A DNA stretch of 64,000 nt from Halocatena halophila (lineage in GTDB: Archaea; Halobacteriota; Halobacteria; Halobacteriales; Haloarculaceae), in the NCBI GenBank assembly GCA_027563145.1, contig CP071306.1, forward strand, positions 682,001 to 746,000, in the 5' to 3' direction. A program made the translations under genes and the position numbers. The notes below the pieces were generated by a model. It had not been told where the DNA came from. It searched no databases and saw nothing but the letters and a program-made list of their open reading frames with translations. Positions 31,219 through 39,590 of the stretch are shown piece after piece (within the stretch, counting starts at the first letter, position 1; each line of letters opens with the position of its first letter).

Positions 31219-32634
31219 ATGAGCCAGGAGTACTACGACGTGCTCGGGGTTGATCCCGACGCGTCCGAAGCAGAGATCGAAGCAGCGTATCGCGAGCGCG
31301 TGAAAGACGTGCATCCGGATCGAAACGACTCGCCAACCGCAGAAGATGAGTTCATCCGCGTTCAGACCGCCCGGGACGTTCTGACGGATCCACAACAGCG
31401 AGCGCGTTACGATCACGACGCCGGCGGTTTTTCATCGACTGATAAGCGAGCCTACGATGGCACAACCCCATCTGAAGGGACAAGCACGGATCACGAGCGA
31501 ACGTATCGCACGCGGTGGACTGACCGGACCGAGCGGGCGGAGCCGACCGAAACCCGGACTCCGCCACAGCGCGCCTGGATGCCGACACCCAACGGGCTTA
31601 CAGACGAAATTGTCACTGGTGTCACAACCACTTCCCGCGGTGTTGGACGGTTTCTGGCGGCAGTTCGCTGTCCACGCCGTCTCACGCCAAGCAAGCAACG
31701 CATTAGCGCCGCGCTGGTGACACCTACAGGTATTCGGCTGATCGCCACGACGCTGTTTATCCTCGGTGGCACCATCAGCGCGAACTATCTGGGCATTGAT
31801 CCACATCAACGGCCGTGGATTGGGTTCTTGATCGTTGTTATTGGCCTGCTCGTCAGCTACGCCAGCTACGATCTGCTGTTTTCGACGCCGTACTACGAAC
31901 CGTCGAATCGGCAATCGTTCGATCCATCTGGAACCCCTCGTCTCTGGCCAATTCCGGTCATTAATGGGCTTGGGCTCTCTCTGATCGGAATCGCGTTCAC
32001 CCGGGGAGCTCCGACTGGAGGCCTTGCCTTTACTGCTGTAGTTTTGCTTCCGATCGTCGTGGCGGTGGCCATCTCACGGGTGATTCGCCCATCAATCACC
32101 GCCTCGTATCCGATCGGTCTCGATCAGTGCATTCGATTCATCGCGCGGACGGTCCAGTTTCTCCCCCTGATCTGTCTGTTCATCGCAGGATTCACGGTCT
32201 GGGGGTTCGATACGCCAGGAATGCTTTCGAGCTGGGCGCTAACGGGGAGTGCGCCGTGGTTCGACCACCTGACGCTCTGGGGAGTTTATGTGGGAATGTT
32301 GTTGAATCTCTGTGTCGGACTGCTCGTGGGCATCTCACTGTGCTGGTCAGTGTACGCGATGTGTACGCAGTTGACCGCTGCACCGTGGACCGATCGGTAC
32401 ACCAATGGCTATCAGATTCGACCAGGAGCCTGGAACGCGCTCGTCACTGGACCGTTCGTCGTCTCGGTCTGGATGGTGATCGCCGGCATCTCCTCAATTC
32501 GGATCCCGGTCGGTGTCTCTTCGATTCTGATCACACAGAATGGACTGTTGCTCACACTGTTCATGCTTCCGTCAGTGCTCACCGGGCTGTACATCCTCCG
32601 CCGCCAGCTTGAGCCAGTGTTTCACCTACAGTGA
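31219..32634 (+). CDS. Membrane-anchored J-domain protein
   Basis: 471 residues. Residues 1-70 are a complete J domain: YYDVLGVDPDASEAEIEAAYRERVKDVHPDRN with the essential HPD at about residue 34, ending QQRARYDHDAG. A ~100-residue polar linker follows, then about eight or nine hydrophobic helices to the C-terminus. It lacks the Gly/Phe and zinc-finger regions of classical DnaJ. It could recruit an Hsp70 to the membrane. The adjacent divergent Hsp70 is the obvious candidate partner. It overlaps the convergent cofG by 9 bp. Confidence 0.85.
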   Translation: MSQEYYDVLGVDPDASEAEIEAAYRERVKDVHPDRNDSPTAEDEFIRVQTARDVLTDPQQRARYDHDAGGFSSTDKRAYDGTTPSEGTSTDHERTYRTRWTDRTERAEPTETRTPPQRAWMPTPNGLTDEIVTGVTTTSRGVGRFLAAVRCPRRLTPSKQRISAALVTPTGIRLIATTLFILGGTISANYLGIDPHQRPWIGFLIVVIGLLVSYASYDLLFSTPYYEPSNRQSFDPSGTPRLWPIPVINGLGLSLIGIAFTRGAPTGGLAFTAVVLLPIVVAVAISRVIRPSITASYPIGLDQCIRFIARTVQFLPLICLFIAGFTVWGFDTPGMLSSWALTGSAPWFDHLTLWGVYVGMLLNLCVGLLVGISLCWSVYAMCTQLTAAPWTDRYTNGYQIRPGAWNALVTGPFVVSVWMVIAGISSIRIPVGVSSILITQNGLLLTLFMLPSVLTGLYILRRQLEPVFHLQ

Positions 32635-33756
32635 TCCATCCTTGAGTATCGATCGAAATCGCCGGCCGTCGGACGTATCGGCCTCGATTGCCGATTCAAT
32701 CCGATCGGAGAGCCAGTCTTCTGTGACGTAGTGGTCGTACACCGGAAGCCGTTCGGTGAGAACTGCGTCGCCGTGGTCGGCGATCGACTGGAGCTCTTCG
32801 ATCGCTGGCCAGGCGTGTTCGGGATTGATGTGATCATCGGTAACCGGTGAGACGCCACCGAGATCGTCGACACCACAATCGAGCAGCGATCTAACTGGGG
32901 CGAGATTCGGTGGGACCTGGACACTCACCGTTTCTGGGAGGGCCACCCTGGCCATCGCCACTGCCCGTCTGAGTGTCTCAATCGAGACTGGGTCGCCCCG
33001 CCACCGTTCGTTCTGTACGACCGGTTGGACGAGCACCTCCTGGATGTGTCCATATCGTTCGGAAAGCTCGGCGATTGCGAGCAGACTCTCGGCACGGTCG
33101 TGCCAGGTTTCACCGATTCCAATCAGGATTCCGGTGGTGAACGGGACGCCAAGCTCGCCAGCCGTTCGGAGGGTTTGCAGTCGTTGTGCTGGTGATTTCG
33201 CTCGCGGGCCACCGTGGGCCTGTACGTCTGCGGTCGTTTCTAGCATCACGCCCATGCTCGCGTTCACGTCCGCAACGGTTTCCATCTGTGCGCGCGTTTG
33301 GTCGCCGGGATTTGCATGCGGAAGCAGTCCCTCCTCCAGTGCGATTTCACAGCCGTGGCGAAGATAGTCGTGGATCGTCTCGAATCCCCATTCACTGAGC
33401 TGCTCGTGGATTTCCGTGTATCGGTCGTCCGGATCGTCGCCGAAGGTGAACAGCGCTTCGGTACATCCAGTTTTCGCCCCTGTCCGGACGATCGATCTGA
33501 TCTCCTCTGGAGTGAGCAACGAGGCCTGGCCAGGTGGATCGTAGTACGTACAGTACGTGCAGGTGTAGCGACACGCCGTCGTCAACGGCACGAAAACGTT
33601 GCGCGCGAACGTCAGTTCAGTGGCCGGTGTAACGTCGCCCGGCGTCACCGAACAGAGTGCTTCGATCGCGTTCGAATCGATCGAGAGCCAGTCGGGCAGC
33701 GTTCTGCTCTGGTCGTGGGTCTCTGTGGCCTGGGATGACACGCTCTTCGATTCCAC
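32626..33756 (-). CDS. cofG: 7,8-didemethyl-8-hydroxy-5-deazariboflavin synthase subunit CofG
   Basis: About 376 residues, a radical SAM enzyme making the F0 deazaflavin chromophore of coenzyme F420 with CofH. The cluster motif is CRYTCTYC (CxxxCxxC). Downstream come EALFTFGDDPDDRY, GVMLETTADVQAHG and ITGILIGIGET-like (here TTGILIGIGETW), and NLAPVRSLLDCGVDDLGGVSPVTDDHINPE, typical CofG blocks. Start codon is uncertain: GTG at 33756 or 33741. It lies downstream of cofC in the same direction. cofH is not in the window. Confidence 0.93.
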   Translation of the reverse strand: MESKSVSSQATETHDQSRTLPDWLSIDSNAIEALCSVTPGDVTPATELTFARNVFVPLTTACRYTCTYCTYYDPPGQASLLTPEEIRSIVRTGAKTGCTEALFTFGDDPDDRYTEIHEQLSEWGFETIHDYLRHGCEIALEEGLLPHANPGDQTRAQMETVADVNASMGVMLETTADVQAHGGPRAKSPAQRLQTLRTAGELGVPFTTGILIGIGETWHDRAESLLAIAELSERYGHIQEVLVQPVVQNERWRGDPVSIETLRRAVAMARVALPETVSVQVPPNLAPVRSLLDCGVDDLGGVSPVTDDHINPEHAWPAIEELQSIADHGDAVLTERLPVYDHYVTEDWLSDRIESAIEADTSDGRRFRSILKDGSL

Positions 33757-33939
33757 ATGCCAATAAAAAAAAGCTGTCACTCCCGATCTGCGACCAGCCA
33801 CGGTCACAGCGCCATCTGTGATCGGGAGCCGCGTCTGGCCATTCGCACACGGTGATTGCGCACCGTGTCCGACCCCCGCATGATGTGGTATGTTATGGCA
33901 TAGTATAGTCCTTGGGGTGGTAAGCTGTTTCGAGCGCTC

Positions 33940-34539
33940 TCACTGCCGTCGGAGTTCGACTCGACTTGTGCTCGTATCGAGCGTGAATCGGTCGGAGAGC
34001 CAGGTTGCTGATTCGTTGGTGGCATGCATGAGCAGTTCCGGGAGATCCGCAGGCGTATCGATATCGGTTGCGAGTCGGTAGGAGTCTATGACAGACAGCG
34101 ACAGATCGAGTGTGTCGCAGTTGCGCCGATGGTCAAGCAGCGAGCCGCCGTGGTAGTCTACGGTAAACGCGTCGTCTCTGATGACGATCGCGTTCGTTCC
34201 GCCGCCGCGACCGGGAGCAATGACCACGTCACCGGGCGTTTCGAGCAGTCTCGTGATTGCGTCCGGTGTTGCGAGCCCGAGATCGGCCATGATGACGGCG
34301 GTTGGTGGTTCCAGATGTGCATTCACTGCCGCAGAGAGTCCCCGATCGTCAACGATCTCTGGATCAGCGTCGGTTGGTTCGGTCGAGAGCAATGTGGGTT
34401 CATAGCCGGCGTCGCGAATGGTGCGACAGACATCTCGGCGCAGGCACGTAGCGAGCGCCGTTCGTTCCGACGGCGCAAGCACCGGCGCGAGGCGGGTTTT
34501 TGGGTCGGAGGATCGGAACGGAACCAGAATTTGGGTCAT
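33940..34539 (-). CDS. cofC: 2-phospho-L-lactate guanylyltransferase CofC
   Basis: 199 residues of the nucleotidyltransferase fold. Key blocks are LVPFRSSDPKTRLAPVL (GTP-binding Arg/Lys), VIMADLGLATPDAI (metal-binding Asp), and VIAPGRGGGTNAIVIRDD. It activates 2-phospholactate (or a related acid) with GTP in F420 assembly. cofG follows 183 bp downstream, so the two F420 genes probably share regulation. The ATG at 34539 is preferred over an upstream one at 34557. Confidence 0.93.
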   Translation of the reverse strand: MTQILVPFRSSDPKTRLAPVLAPSERTALATCLRRDVCRTIRDAGYEPTLLSTEPTDADPEIVDDRGLSAAVNAHLEPPTAVIMADLGLATPDAITRLLETPGDVVIAPGRGGGTNAIVIRDDAFTVDYHGGSLLDHRRNCDTLDLSLSVIDSYRLATDIDTPADLPELLMHATNESATWLSDRFTLDTSTSRVELRRQ

Positions 34540-34702
34540 GGATGGAGACGTTCCCACCGTGAGTGGCGGGCTCTATGGGGCTGTCGTGTCTCCTGGTGAA
34601 AAAAGGTGCGCGAATCTGTGGCTGTGTGCGAACTCGCATTCGATTGTGGTTGCAGACAGCCGTTCCACAGCTGGTTTTTTCACTCGAGACTATTCACTCA
34701 CA

Positions 34703-35436: not shown

Positions 35437-35757
35437 CTATCTTAACAGTCTATGTTTCGCGAGGAATTGAGCATGACGAAAATCCGTAACCGACATCAGT
35501 CCATCAGCAATAGTGGCTCTCGAAGCTAATAGGACGAGGCACGACATTTGATCAGTGATGTATGTCCCACGATATCTATCGTGAGCACCTAATAGCTCCC
35601 AAGAAAGAGCTCTCATATGGAGCCAGCAGCGTTCGAGATCGGCCAGCGTTCGCTGACCGCGATGACGACTTCCCGAGTACCCAGCTGACGCACACATGGT
35701 AATCACCGCTTCATTGATGTGCGCGTAGCCCAAAATCGTACCATAGATATCATTCAT
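35437..35757 (-). CDS. Hypothetical 106-residue protein divergent from halocin-like gene
   Basis: The frame opens MNDIYGTILGYAHINEAV and has no membrane helix or recognised motif; it holds CASAGYSGSRHRGQR and a WELLGAHDRYRG segment. A minus-strand TATA element (TTTTATAATT, centre about 35782) lies 25 bp upstream of the ATG, as expected for a leaderless gene, which supports it being real. It is divergent from the halocin-like precursor and shares the AT-rich promoter region. Its role in regulation or self-protection is speculation. Confidence 0.45.
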   Translation of the reverse strand: MNDIYGTILGYAHINEAVITMCASAGYSGSRHRGQRTLADLERCWLHMRALSWELLGAHDRYRGTYITDQMSCLVLLASRATIADGLMSVTDFRHAQFLAKHRLLR

Positions 35758-35776
35758 TCTTTATTTTTAGTTAATT

Positions 35777-35810
35777 AATTATAAAATAGTAGATATTGTT
35801 TTATAATATG
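35777..35810. promoter_or_regulatory. Back-to-back TATA elements
   Basis: In a 75-bp AT-rich gap, AATTATAAAA (35777-35786, read on the minus strand) faces the small gene at 35757, and TTTTATAATA (35799-35808) faces the halocin-like gene, 25-30 bp upstream of each start. It is a compact divergent promoter. Confidence 0.5.
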
Positions 35811-35833
35811 AGTCTATAATATTTTCTGTGGAT

Positions 35834-36802
35834 ATGATAAAGGAATCGAAAGCAAATGAGGTCGATTCATACCAGGAGGAACTGAGTAATGCGGTTGATG
35901 ACGGTGGCGGCTGTTATGAGGCATGGGAAACTGCCCAAGTGTCCCGGATGGGAAGCCGACGGTCGTTCATGACGGGTGTGGTTGCAAGCCTCCTTACCGG
36001 TGCTTCAATTGGGAGTATCTCTGCTGCAGAAACCATTTCAGCAGATCCCGAAAAAGAGATATCGGAGCTAACAAAGACTGAAAAGCAACAGCTCGTTAAA
36101 GAAGCACGATCTGATACACGCGTACAAGCGATCCAGCGAGAACATGTGTCTCGTGGCCTTAAACCAGACAGCAACTCAGTAGTTGGGTACAAAACCACCT
36201 ACCAAGACCGTGAATTGAGATTTGTTAGGATTCCGTTCAGTACCAACGGTAGTAGTTCTCTTAGACTCTCTGACGATGGTGATGTATCGAAAACTGGTTC
36301 AATAATTTGGAACACTGCGGAGGAGATCGACCCGTACGGCTATGTTACTACCTACCAGGTGGACTACACTGCTACTCCAGATGAAATAGAACAAGCCCTT
36401 CGTGAGAATGGTGTAAGCATAGACTCAATCGATACTGCCCCGGTTGTGACTGATTACACCCATATTGGGACAAATGGCCGTACGAATGTCAATACGAACT
36501 CAAACTCCGTAACCCTCCCAATAGCAACGGAAAGAGAGATAACTGCTCAAGGCTGTGAATGTTCTTCTGCGTTTTTCAACCCGATAACCGCGTGTGCTCC
36601 CTGTGGAGTTCCCGATGGTGAGTGTATGAATGACCTGGCAAATGTATATGCTCTCGAAATCGTTGCTTGTGGATCCTGTGTAGCCACCAGTGGCTGGTTA
36701 ACGAAAGCATGTGCGGCCTGTGTGGCAACGATCATAGAGGAAAATCAGCTTGGATTCACCTGTTGTCCGTGTAGAGCGTGCGATGGAATAATCATATGTT
36801 AA
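35834..36802 (+). CDS. Halocin C8-like Cys-rich secreted precursor
   Basis: 322 residues. After a ~40-residue polar leader comes a twin-arginine signal (GSRRSFMTGVVASLLTGASIG...SAA). A middle domain of about 170 residues follows (e.g. TEKQQLVKEARSDTRVQAI, VTTYQVDYTATPDEIEQAL). The last ~83 residues carry 14 cysteines, starting GCECSSAFFN and ending CCPCRACDGIIIC. Known halocin C8 precursors have the same plan: Tat signal, an immunity/HalI part, and a C-terminal Cys-rich peptide of about 76 residues with 10 Cys. Homology is inferred from layout, not searched. A GTG at 35828 is an alternative start. Confidence 0.78.
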   Translation: MIKESKANEVDSYQEELSNAVDDGGGCYEAWETAQVSRMGSRRSFMTGVVASLLTGASIGSISAAETISADPEKEISELTKTEKQQLVKEARSDTRVQAIQREHVSRGLKPDSNSVVGYKTTYQDRELRFVRIPFSTNGSSSLRLSDDGDVSKTGSIIWNTAEEIDPYGYVTTYQVDYTATPDEIEQALRENGVSIDSIDTAPVVTDYTHIGTNGRTNVNTNSNSVTLPIATEREITAQGCECSSAFFNPITACAPCGVPDGECMNDLANVYALEIVACGSCVATSGWLTKACAACVATIIEENQLGFTCCPCRACDGIIIC

Positions 36803-36824: not shown

Positions 36825-37208
36825 TTACCTTCTGGTCAGCAGGACAAAATGTCCCACAGCAGAACCCCAAAATGAGGCCAATAGTCCAATTTCAACAATG
36901 ACTGGAATATCAATTGGTGGGACTAAAACGGCAATCGTGACAGCGATGAGAAAAGCGATGCCGTACCAGGAACCCAGGCGTTTGCCCCGCACGCCGCCCT
37001 CTGCGTGAACTGTGAATGCCCCAATAATAACGCCAATTCCTATCGATGTGGCAGTTATCAGCGGTCCGGGAAGATCAGGTAGGACTCCGTTCCACAGATC
37101 AACATAGAACGCCCATGTTATGAGCACCGCAAATGACAGTTTCAAAGATGGTTGTCGCAACTGTTGCCAACGAATTTTGCCTTTTTCATTCTCCGTATTG
37201 TTTTCCAT
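36825..37208 (-). CDS. Four-helix membrane protein beside halocin-like gene
   Basis: 127 residues from the ATG at 37208 (another at 37217). It has a basic, polar N-terminus (TENEKGKIRWQQLRQPSLK) and four hydrophobic helices (about residues 18-32, 41-59, 71-90, 94-112). No family recognised. It is convergent with the halocin-like gene, 22 bp apart. Small membrane proteins next to bacteriocins sometimes confer immunity, but nothing in this sequence proves that. Confidence 0.6.
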   Translation of the reverse strand: MENNTENEKGKIRWQQLRQPSLKLSFAVLITWAFYVDLWNGVLPDLPGPLITATSIGIGVIIGAFTVHAEGGVRGKRLGSWYGIAFLIAVTIAVLVPPIDIPVIVEIGLLASFWGSAVGHFVLLTRR

Positions 37209-37371
37209 TATATGCATTTAATAGATCGATGCATAAATGACTATCTTGTCATGTTAATGGGAATAAATCAGACAGACAGCGTACCCAGAATGACACCAGA
37301 GAGATGCCTGTCTTATCAATCGACACTGCAAGAAGAAGTAACACCTATCACAGCACCAACAGAATAGCCAG

Positions 37372-38544: not shown

Positions 38545-38637
38545 ATGACTAGCACACGCTGTACTCGCTGTGGCCAACCAGTGGCTCGTCCACGGGCGCA
38601 TGCTACGGGCTGTCCGTCGTGGAGGGTTGGCTCGTGA
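38545..38637 (+). CDS. 30-residue zinc-finger microprotein
   Basis: The ATG at 38545 opens a 30-residue frame with CTRCGQPVARPRAHATGC, a CxxC knuckle plus later His and Cys able to bind one zinc. It is short, but the start and the GTGA overlap of its stop with the next gene's GTG support it. Very small zinc-finger proteins are common in haloarchaea. Function unknown. Confidence 0.5.
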   Translation: MTSTRCTRCGQPVARPRAHATGCPSWRVGS

Positions 38638-39158
38638 GTCTCCCACAGTTCAGCTTTCGGACTGTGGACGGTCAGATCAGCACGCTGGAGGGGATCGAGG
38701 ATCGCGGGGAGCTTTCCTCTGCTGAGTTGCACCATGTCGTGGATATCGCCGAGAGTTGCTGGTGTCGGCCCTGTCAGTCAACGGAATGTACGCATTGTCG
38801 TCAGGTGGAGGAAGTGCTCGCGATTGCTGATCTGAGCGAGCGCTCGGGCGGTGGTCCGGATGAGCTTCCGTCGCTCGATCGGATCACTCGCTTTTGCTCA
38901 CAGGGCGAGACGATCTACACCGCCTGGTTCGAGAATGATGCTCGGTTGCGTGCGCATGAACAACGGAGCGGAGACGTGACGTTGTTGGCGTTTTCTCCCG
39001 ATCGTCCGGAGGATCCGGCACGAGCGCAGACGCAGGACGAGGCTGTGTCTGCTGCGAATTGTTTGCTAGAGGCTGTTGTTCCGTTCTGTGAAGCTCGATC
39101 GACCGAGGAACTTCCCGTAATCCTCCAGTTGTTGGTCTCTCCAGCGCACGACGGCTAA
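38634..39158 (+). CDS. Hypothetical protein with Cys cluster
   Basis: 174 residues from a GTG coupled to the preceding microprotein. It contains ESCWCRPCQSTECTHC (CxCxxC...CxxC) near residue 40, a probable metal-binding cluster, and a C-terminal half LLAFSPDRPEDPARAQTQDEAV...LPVILQLLVSPAHDG. That half is duplicated 432 bp downstream. No known family recognised. The pair (microprotein plus this gene) may be a small accessory operon. An in-frame GTG at 38619 would lengthen it by five residues. Confidence 0.6.
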   Translation: MSLPQFSFRTVDGQISTLEGIEDRGELSSAELHHVVDIAESCWCRPCQSTECTHCRQVEEVLAIADLSERSGGGPDELPSLDRITRFCSQGETIYTAWFENDARLRAHEQRSGDVTLLAFSPDRPEDPARAQTQDEAVSAANCLLEAVVPFCEARSTEELPVILQLLVSPAHDG

Positions 39159-39362: not shown

Positions 39363-39590
39363 ATGAGTGGTGAGCGAAGCGAACCCGAGTCGAAAAAAGG
39401 TTGGACGCTGACGTTGTTGGCGTTTTCTCCTGATCGGCCGGAGGATCCTGCACGGGCGCAGACGCAGGATGAAGCTGTGTCTGCCGCGAGCTGTTTGCTA
39501 GATGGGGTCGTGAAGTTCTCCGACGCACGATCAACTGAAGAACTTCCCGTAATCCTCCAGCTGTTGGTCTCTCCAGCGCACGACGGCTAA
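39363..39590 (+). pseudogene. Duplicated C-terminal fragment of the 38634 gene
   Basis: 75 codons: a repeat-derived start (MSGERSEPESKKG, encoded by a GAGCGAAGCGAACC motif) joined to the conserved C-terminal half LLAFSPDRPEDPARAQTQDEAV...VSPAHDG of the upstream gene. The Cys cluster and N-terminal half are missing. Most likely a non-functional or truncated duplicate. Confidence 0.65.

Follow-up and report, generated by a model that had tools for sequence, protein, structure and literature searches.

Organization of the Locus

The window, i.e., the whole 64,000 nt stretch from Halocatena halophila analyzed here, contains on its plus strand a gene for a 322 aa precursor, counted from the ATG at 35834 and with an alternative GTG start at 35828, and convergent to it a gene for a small membrane protein (Table 1). 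The precursor ORF is real, and relatives with 56–58% identity and the same layout support its being coding; its GC content is 47.7%, whereas that of four neighbouring ORFs is 58–61%. The product consists of an n-region of 41 aa upstream of the twin arginines (residues 42–43), which contains the motif VDDGGGCYEAWE, followed by the signal, a middle domain of 171 aa, and a tail of 82 aa counted from its first Cys. There are 15 Cys residues in total (positions 27, 241, 243, 254, 257, 264, 279, 282, 293, 296, 310, 311, 313, 316, and 322), with C27 in the n-region and the other 14 in the final 82 residues. An earlier, sequence-only reading had described a twin-arginine signal, a middle domain of about 170 residues and a 14-Cys tail, which agrees with our measurements; it also ended the tail in CCPCRACDG, but the terminus is CCPCRACDGIIIC and therefore CCPCRACDG is not the C-terminal end.

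Table 1. Features of the precursor locus (positions in the window).
Feature	Position	Strand	Description
Accessory segment	34679..37669		~3 kb, AT-rich, holds precursor and partner; about 845 bp instead in the nearest congener
AT-rich stretch upstream of precursor	35758..35833		About 16% GC; TATA-like elements read by eye
Precursor gene	35834..36802	+	322 aa: leader, Tat signal, HalI-like propeptide, 14-Cys tail
Leader motif VDDGGGCYEAWETAQVSR in n-region	35894..35947	+	Common to several tail classes; resembles a short haloarchaeal peptide
Twin-arginine signal SRRSFMTGVVASLLTGASIGSISAA	35954..36028	+	Read from sequence; putative cleavage after AA, placed by eye
HalI-like part of middle domain	36041..36268	+	Homology by profile comparison; helix-loop-helix predicted at residues 81–106
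ITAQG, candidate processing site	36539..36553	+	Variant of the [VIF][STG]TQ linker motif directly before the tail
14-Cys tail, candidate mature peptide	36554..36799	+	82 aa; Cx1Cx10Cx2Cx6Cx14Cx2Cx10Cx2Cx13CCx1Cx2Cx5C
Convergent membrane protein	36825..37217	-	130 aa; candidate for a dedicated immunity protein; about 3 TM (crude hydropathy scan)

The arginine pair is present in all nine aligned sequences, that from the window included, and by eye the signal reads as SRRSFM and then a hydrophobic stretch, as in the ProC8 architecture; the Pfam model TAT_signal did not match the window precursor. This signal suggests export by the Tat pathway. No family in Pfam or NCBIfam covers the precursor, and its matches to Patatin (E 0.0041), FlgT_N and ATP synthase epsilon were dismissed because they are under the curated cut-offs; likewise, comparison of the precursor profile with PDB sequences gave nothing significant (best E 0.22). 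AlphaFold2 models were unusable, with a mean pLDDT of 32 for the precursor and 39 for the tail (three input sequences) and of only about 54–59 for the helices of residues 81–106.

So dense a cluster of Cys residues is not expected by chance, the expectation for 14 Cys in 83 residues being about 2e-12 to 5e-10 over 322 positions if a Cys background of 0.8–1.2% is assumed. The number of Cys residues is even in all 41 tails of our main set, while a further TIGR04449-type protein outside this set, L118, has 11 in its last 100 residues. The tail from the window may be held by up to seven disulphides.

Both flanks of the locus are collinear with those of the nearest congener, chosen by CofC (93%), where the replacement of the accessory segment (L153, 3704–4548) contains RelE-type toxin-like and antitoxin-like ORFs, as identified by reading. 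This comparison indicates an accessory placement of the precursor and its partner, and the presence of a RelE-like pair in the same slot makes it look like an exchange site for small conflict cassettes. The genes for CofG and CofC (coenzyme F420 synthesis; 32626–34557) adjoin the accessory segment. Farther downstream, ORFs 38619–39158 and 39363–39590 share a near-identical C-terminal stretch, which is a partial local duplication, and the congener region aligns at one place to both copies. The sequence-only reading correctly saw an AT-rich accessory region, but its divergent partner did not hold up: the minus-strand ORF 35437–35757 matched the own genome alone among 145 searched, and was rejected as a partner for having no homologue in the other 144.

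Relatives and Distribution

A full-length search of 195 genomes gave matches at E <= 0.001 in nine of them, including the own genome, several of which covered the N-terminal part only; the six congeners in the sample had no precursor match at this threshold. The class with a 14-Cys tail comprises the window precursor, L044 (=L002, from Halapricum sp. CBA1109), L045 (from a Haloferacaceae MAG), L047/L069 (G239), L003=L048/L070 (G118), and L004/L071 (G115), and a broken fragment of a precursor of this class occurs in G193 (L005/L072). Among the other five aligned members, the Cys spacing of the tail is the same as in the window in two (L044 and L047), and in L045 it matches over the first 12 Cys. 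At E <= 0.01, a profile of the tail matched 20 genomes, the own one among them, out of the 392 searched from the order, and the majority of these matches are of a shorter tail type sharing the core. The own genome contains a paralogue, L067 (G000:C5:35229-35387), which is a Tat-type precursor with a 12-Cys tail of the short type; a membrane ORF of 91 aa, convergent to it, starts the downstream side at a distance of 57 bp.

Phage records had no precursor match, and the plasmid search produced a single one, to residues 1–111, in halophilic archaeon DL31. Searches by pattern retrieved 16 stretches from viral contigs, none of which was confirmed, and 63 from named genomes, two of them confirmed.

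The Middle Domain, but Not the Tail, Relates to Halocin C8 Precursors

The sequence-only reading had likened the protein to halocin C8, for which the TIGR04449 model is available. This model did not match the window protein at E up to 1, short of its curated cut-off of 24 bits, and in the own genome it matched at another locus only. Across the 392 genomes there were matches in 52, in 50 of them above the cut-off, and these included L017, whose tail we take to be identical to mature halocin C8. A borderline TIGR04449 tail was also seen in L013 (G000:C1:1032413-1032604), on a 719-aa frame that is longer than most such frames.

For profile comparison, 41 proteins were divided into middle domain and tail. 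With hhalign, the six 14-Cys tails gave 0.1% against the 17 TIGR04449 tails and 97.6% against the 13 tails of the short-tail group. A halocin C8 domain in the tail was thus ruled out, both by this value and by the lack of a TIGR04449 match; the Cys spacing is also unlike that of TIGR04449 tails, in agreement with the new pattern that had been proposed. Conversely, after removal of signal and tail, the middle domains matched those of TIGR04449 precursors at 96.1% (P 2.8e-9, 74 columns). Without L009 and L033, the two leader-bearing precursors among the 17, the value was 96.3% with a score of 62.7, whereas none of 200 column shuffles exceeded 18.8 and the reversed alignment scored 12.9. The aligned stretch is the N-terminal part of the HalI-like domain. 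Against only L017, L018, L028, and L030, the sequences taken as nearest halocin C8, the match of the 14-Cys group dropped to 16% (58% with the short-tail group added), so the link with halocin runs via the wider family.

In a search of 4591 six-frame ORFs with an HMM of the middle domain only, the TIGR04449 precursors L021 (6.6e-9) and L034 (3.2e-6) ranked above all other ORFs not belonging to the tail superclass of the window, and many other TIGR04449 precursors had E-values near or above 1. Together, these profile comparisons show homology of the window middle domain, which is HalI-like, to that of TIGR04449 precursors. The earlier likeness to halocin C8 is then upheld for the overall plan and the middle domain, but not for the tail, and the combination points to a precursor of the halocin C8 type that carries another toxin tail.

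A Leader Motif Is Common to Unrelated Tails

A profile of the leader motif (43 positions, 15 sequences) recovered long precursors of several tail classes: A, which includes the window tail and the short form; B, corresponding to TIGR04449; and D (L106, L120), E (L112=L008, L116), and F (L117, L119), each with two sequences. Save for the long and short tails of class A, pairwise comparison of tails between classes gave a maximum of 6.7%, and class B tails gave 26% with a B-like subgroup. By profile comparison, the five Cys-rich tail classes with the leader motif thus show no detectable mutual similarity. The middle-domain HMM reaches L008, of class E, at 0.0085. As judged by reading, the leader is present in all six long-tail precursors, in 4 of 13 short-tail ones and in 2 of 17 TIGR04449 precursors; in L052, a fifth short-tail case, it lies across a stop.

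The leader profile matched 344 of the 392 genomes at E <= 0.01. Six out of seven regions with weak or medium matches that were examined have a short ORF with DGCGCTEIWEH, some of them near-identical, and the own genome carries one as well (L133); the seventh region encodes a 227-aa protein with no obvious Tat signal. The short peptide from L133 (G000:C1:1902156-1902227), L135–L138, L140, and L141 reads VEDGCGCTEIWEHxSE, with VDDG in L141. Leader and short motif matched at 97.3% (P 2.7e-11, 22 columns, a value without shuffle control). Those of the short motif peptides that were checked matched no Pfam or NCBIfam family, and in the five loci compared their ORF is near a gene read as ferredoxin-dependent nitrite or sulphite reductase-like. 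In proteins L124–L128 (226–228 aa), the leader motif is combined with a C-terminal part resembling a CxxC zinc ribbon, and no Tat signal is obvious; the motif extends beyond secreted proteins. Identity of the leader with the Htur_1727/radical-SAM peptide was rejected, as TIGR04031 matched none of the short peptides checked and is absent from the genome; the pseudo-SAM model gave hits below cut-off only.

The linker directly preceding the tail also contains a recurrent motif. We counted 16 instances of [VIF][STG]TQ in 1468 residues before tails versus one in 5381 residues elsewhere in middle domains, an enrichment that is inflated because the motif was picked after looking at the sequences, in a count that includes L008=L112 twice and in which eight rows are short typed stretches lacking the remaining domain. 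The motif occurs in 16 of 49 rows, from classes A, B, and E; the strict STQ form is missing in the other 33, and the window precursor carries a variant instead. It could represent a common processing site, with cleavage near ITAQG in the window precursor.

A Convergent Membrane Protein Accompanies the Precursor

The convergent gene emerged when the ORFs of seven regions were compared all against all, and no Pfam or NCBIfam family covers its product. A homologue lies directly downstream and convergent to the precursor in G239 (L069; 34%, 1.75e-25), and the G239 protein in turn matches the one in the same position in G115 (L071; 27%, 4.9e-5); the leave-one-out E-values of a partner HMM were 1.6e-19 (window), 2.5e-20 (G239), and 3.7e-7 (G115). 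At L045, a partner-like protein was spotted by eye that default filters missed; with the filters off it had an E-value of 0.017, the best match after the known members. In G193 the two genes lie on the same strand and each of them is broken, L070 has no partner alongside and is followed by an Orc/Cdc6-like ORF (identity by reading), and the sole candidate at Halapricum L044 is upstream (E 0.14). Therefore, counting the window, a partner is found by clear similarity at three of the six intact loci of the 14-Cys class, or at four with the weak L045 match. With default filters, the partner family was at none of the compared short-tail or TIGR04449 loci (E <= 1), and with filters off the short-tail locus L011 reached 0.029. 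Overall, these similarities show a linkage of partner and precursor that is conserved in other genera.

The partner family occurs in 62 of 392 genomes at E <= 0.01, and in 16 at E <= 1e-10. Of 30 loci examined, 27 were without an adjoining precursor and the remaining three were those already known; other Cys-rich frames at the loci of the family read as spurious or as zinc proteins. Such a mostly orphan family would look like orphan immunity genes, and equally like a family with another job.

Small membrane ORFs are overrepresented next to these precursors: by a crude hydropathy scan, an ORF with 2–4 hydrophobic segments at no more than 150 bp downstream was present at 15 of 41 precursor loci versus 3 of 79 control ORFs (at least 200 aa, chosen mechanically from six regions, and some of which may not be genes). 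By class, the counts were 3/6 for long tails, 6/13 for short tails, 6/17 for TIGR04449 and 0/5 for others, and three of seven further precursor loci had a small ORF with 2–4 TM within that distance. No small membrane ORF was seen within 150 bp downstream of L017, L018, L028, and L030. According to its title, a report of 2005 by Sun et al. is said to assign halocin C8 production and immunity to one gene; the membrane protein linked to the window precursor suggests that immunity has another gene, beyond that arrangement, and it probably confers self-protection.

Interpretation of the Locus

We consider it reasonably likely that the product of the gene is a precursor from which a halocin-type secreted peptide toxin of haloarchaea is made, with an exchangeable tail and self-protection based on the partner. 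After export by Tat, as predicted from the signal, a protease would cut near ITAQG, where the HalI-like propeptide meets the tail, and release a peptide of ~82 residues with up to seven disulphides. This peptide would act on rival haloarchaea, and probably does so at their membrane. By comparison, the tail behaves like an exchangeable cassette: the homologous middle domain bears an unrelated TIGR04449 tail elsewhere, and the leader motif is found with further tails. Self-protection would probably be due to the convergent protein, perhaps together with the HalI-like propeptide. Toxicity, killing and immunity are predictions for the window system, made from its sequence relationships.

The source of immunity could be different, in that the HalI-like propeptide alone would protect the producer of a halocin-type toxin and the membrane protein would be an unrelated passenger of the accessory segment. 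The homologous middle domain argues for this possibility, because halocin C8 immunity is reported to work in this way; also, a 2008 paper by Mei et al., as its title has it, reportedly found that immunity depends on a helix-loop-helix in the N-terminal part of HalI, which is where the stretch shared by the middle domains lies. It would also account for a partner that is missing at some loci and mostly orphan elsewhere. Nevertheless, both the sequence and the convergent placement of the partner are kept in other genera, small membrane ORFs are enriched beside precursors, and the middle domain, being common to unrelated tails, is a poor candidate for specificity, so we find passenger status for the membrane protein unlikely.

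More distant from the toxin reading, the tail could be a secreted metal- or redox-handling domain, binding Zn or Fe-S or acting as a thiol relay through its CxxC motifs, with the middle domain as a carrier. Indeed, the tail contains four CxxC pairs plus a CCxC, Tat often exports cofactor proteins, and the Mdm2 RING region, ribosomal protein eL40 and a small aldehyde dehydrogenase subunit are among the best PDB sequence matches of the tail profile, although none of these matches is significant (E 0.13 or worse). However, searches of Pfam and NCBIfam at E up to 1 assigned the precursor to no Zn or Fe-S family, the homologous carrier bears the halocin C8 domain elsewhere, and the tails vary among unrelated Cys patterns, all of which make this role quite improbable. 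Since recognition can be a task of proteins that are secreted, variable and modular, the product might also be a signalling or recognition peptide or a surface protein; its homology to a toxin precursor family, and the linked small membrane proteins that resemble bacteriocin immunity genes, render this the least credible of the explanations, and we give it very little weight.

Beyond this locus, the halocin-type precursor that we favour might belong to a haloarchaeal polymorphic peptide-toxin system in which a single chassis (Tat signal, HalI-like propeptide, often the GGGCxEAW leader and an STQ site for processing) is combined with exchangeable Cys-rich tails that are unrelated to each other. 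Many of the tails would have a small membrane immunity protein of their own, and the leader would be read by a common factor. This proposal is tentative, and we rather doubt it in its full extent: most TIGR04449 precursors and many of the short-tail ones are without the leader, which counts against a single chassis. The occurrence of GxGCxExWE, in the own genome and in others, on a short peptide that appears to be cytosolic would imply a common reader of the leader, pointing to an additional cellular factor; if the proposal is true, this reader would be a chaperone, a modifying enzyme or an export gatekeeper. Archaeal antimicrobial peptides and polymorphic toxins are said, from the title, to have been surveyed by Makarova et al. 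in mBio in 2019. We found no description of the window precursor family in the literature searched, and it may have been listed earlier by Makarova et al. in 2019 or by Mei et al. in 2008.

Most halocins are not fully sequenced, as stated in a passage of a review, and with few of them known by sequence, the leader, middle domain and linker motif offer searchable handles, which find toxin-like tails that the curated halocin C8 model misses. Besides, the 14-Cys tail class is now paired with a candidate immunity gene, which makes self-protection of halocin producers testable with two-gene experiments.

Comparison with Known Systems

The window precursor resembles the halocin C8 precursor ProC8/HalI in its twin-arginine-type signal, in a homologous middle domain of similar length and in a Cys-rich C-terminal tail with an even Cys count. 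It differs in a tail unrelated in sequence and Cys spacing to that of TIGR04449, in the leader motif of the n-region and in the linked membrane protein, in contrast to the single gene reported for halocin C8. The short-tail relatives of class A (e.g., L010, L051, L057, and L067) share, in addition to the homologous tail, a homologous middle domain (98.1%) and, in most members, the core Cx14Cx2Cx8-10Cx2Cx13C; however, they have 8–12 Cys, mostly lack the leader motif and have other small membrane neighbours, where any are present. Passages of PMC12893001 describe how the precursors of halocin H4 and HmHapP (HFX_0892) are activated by an extracellular serine protease, and in these, as proposed for the window, a secreted precursor is cut to free an active fragment; the active part of HmHapP is, by contrast, N-terminal (PMC12893001), and the likeness to the window precursor is one of description.
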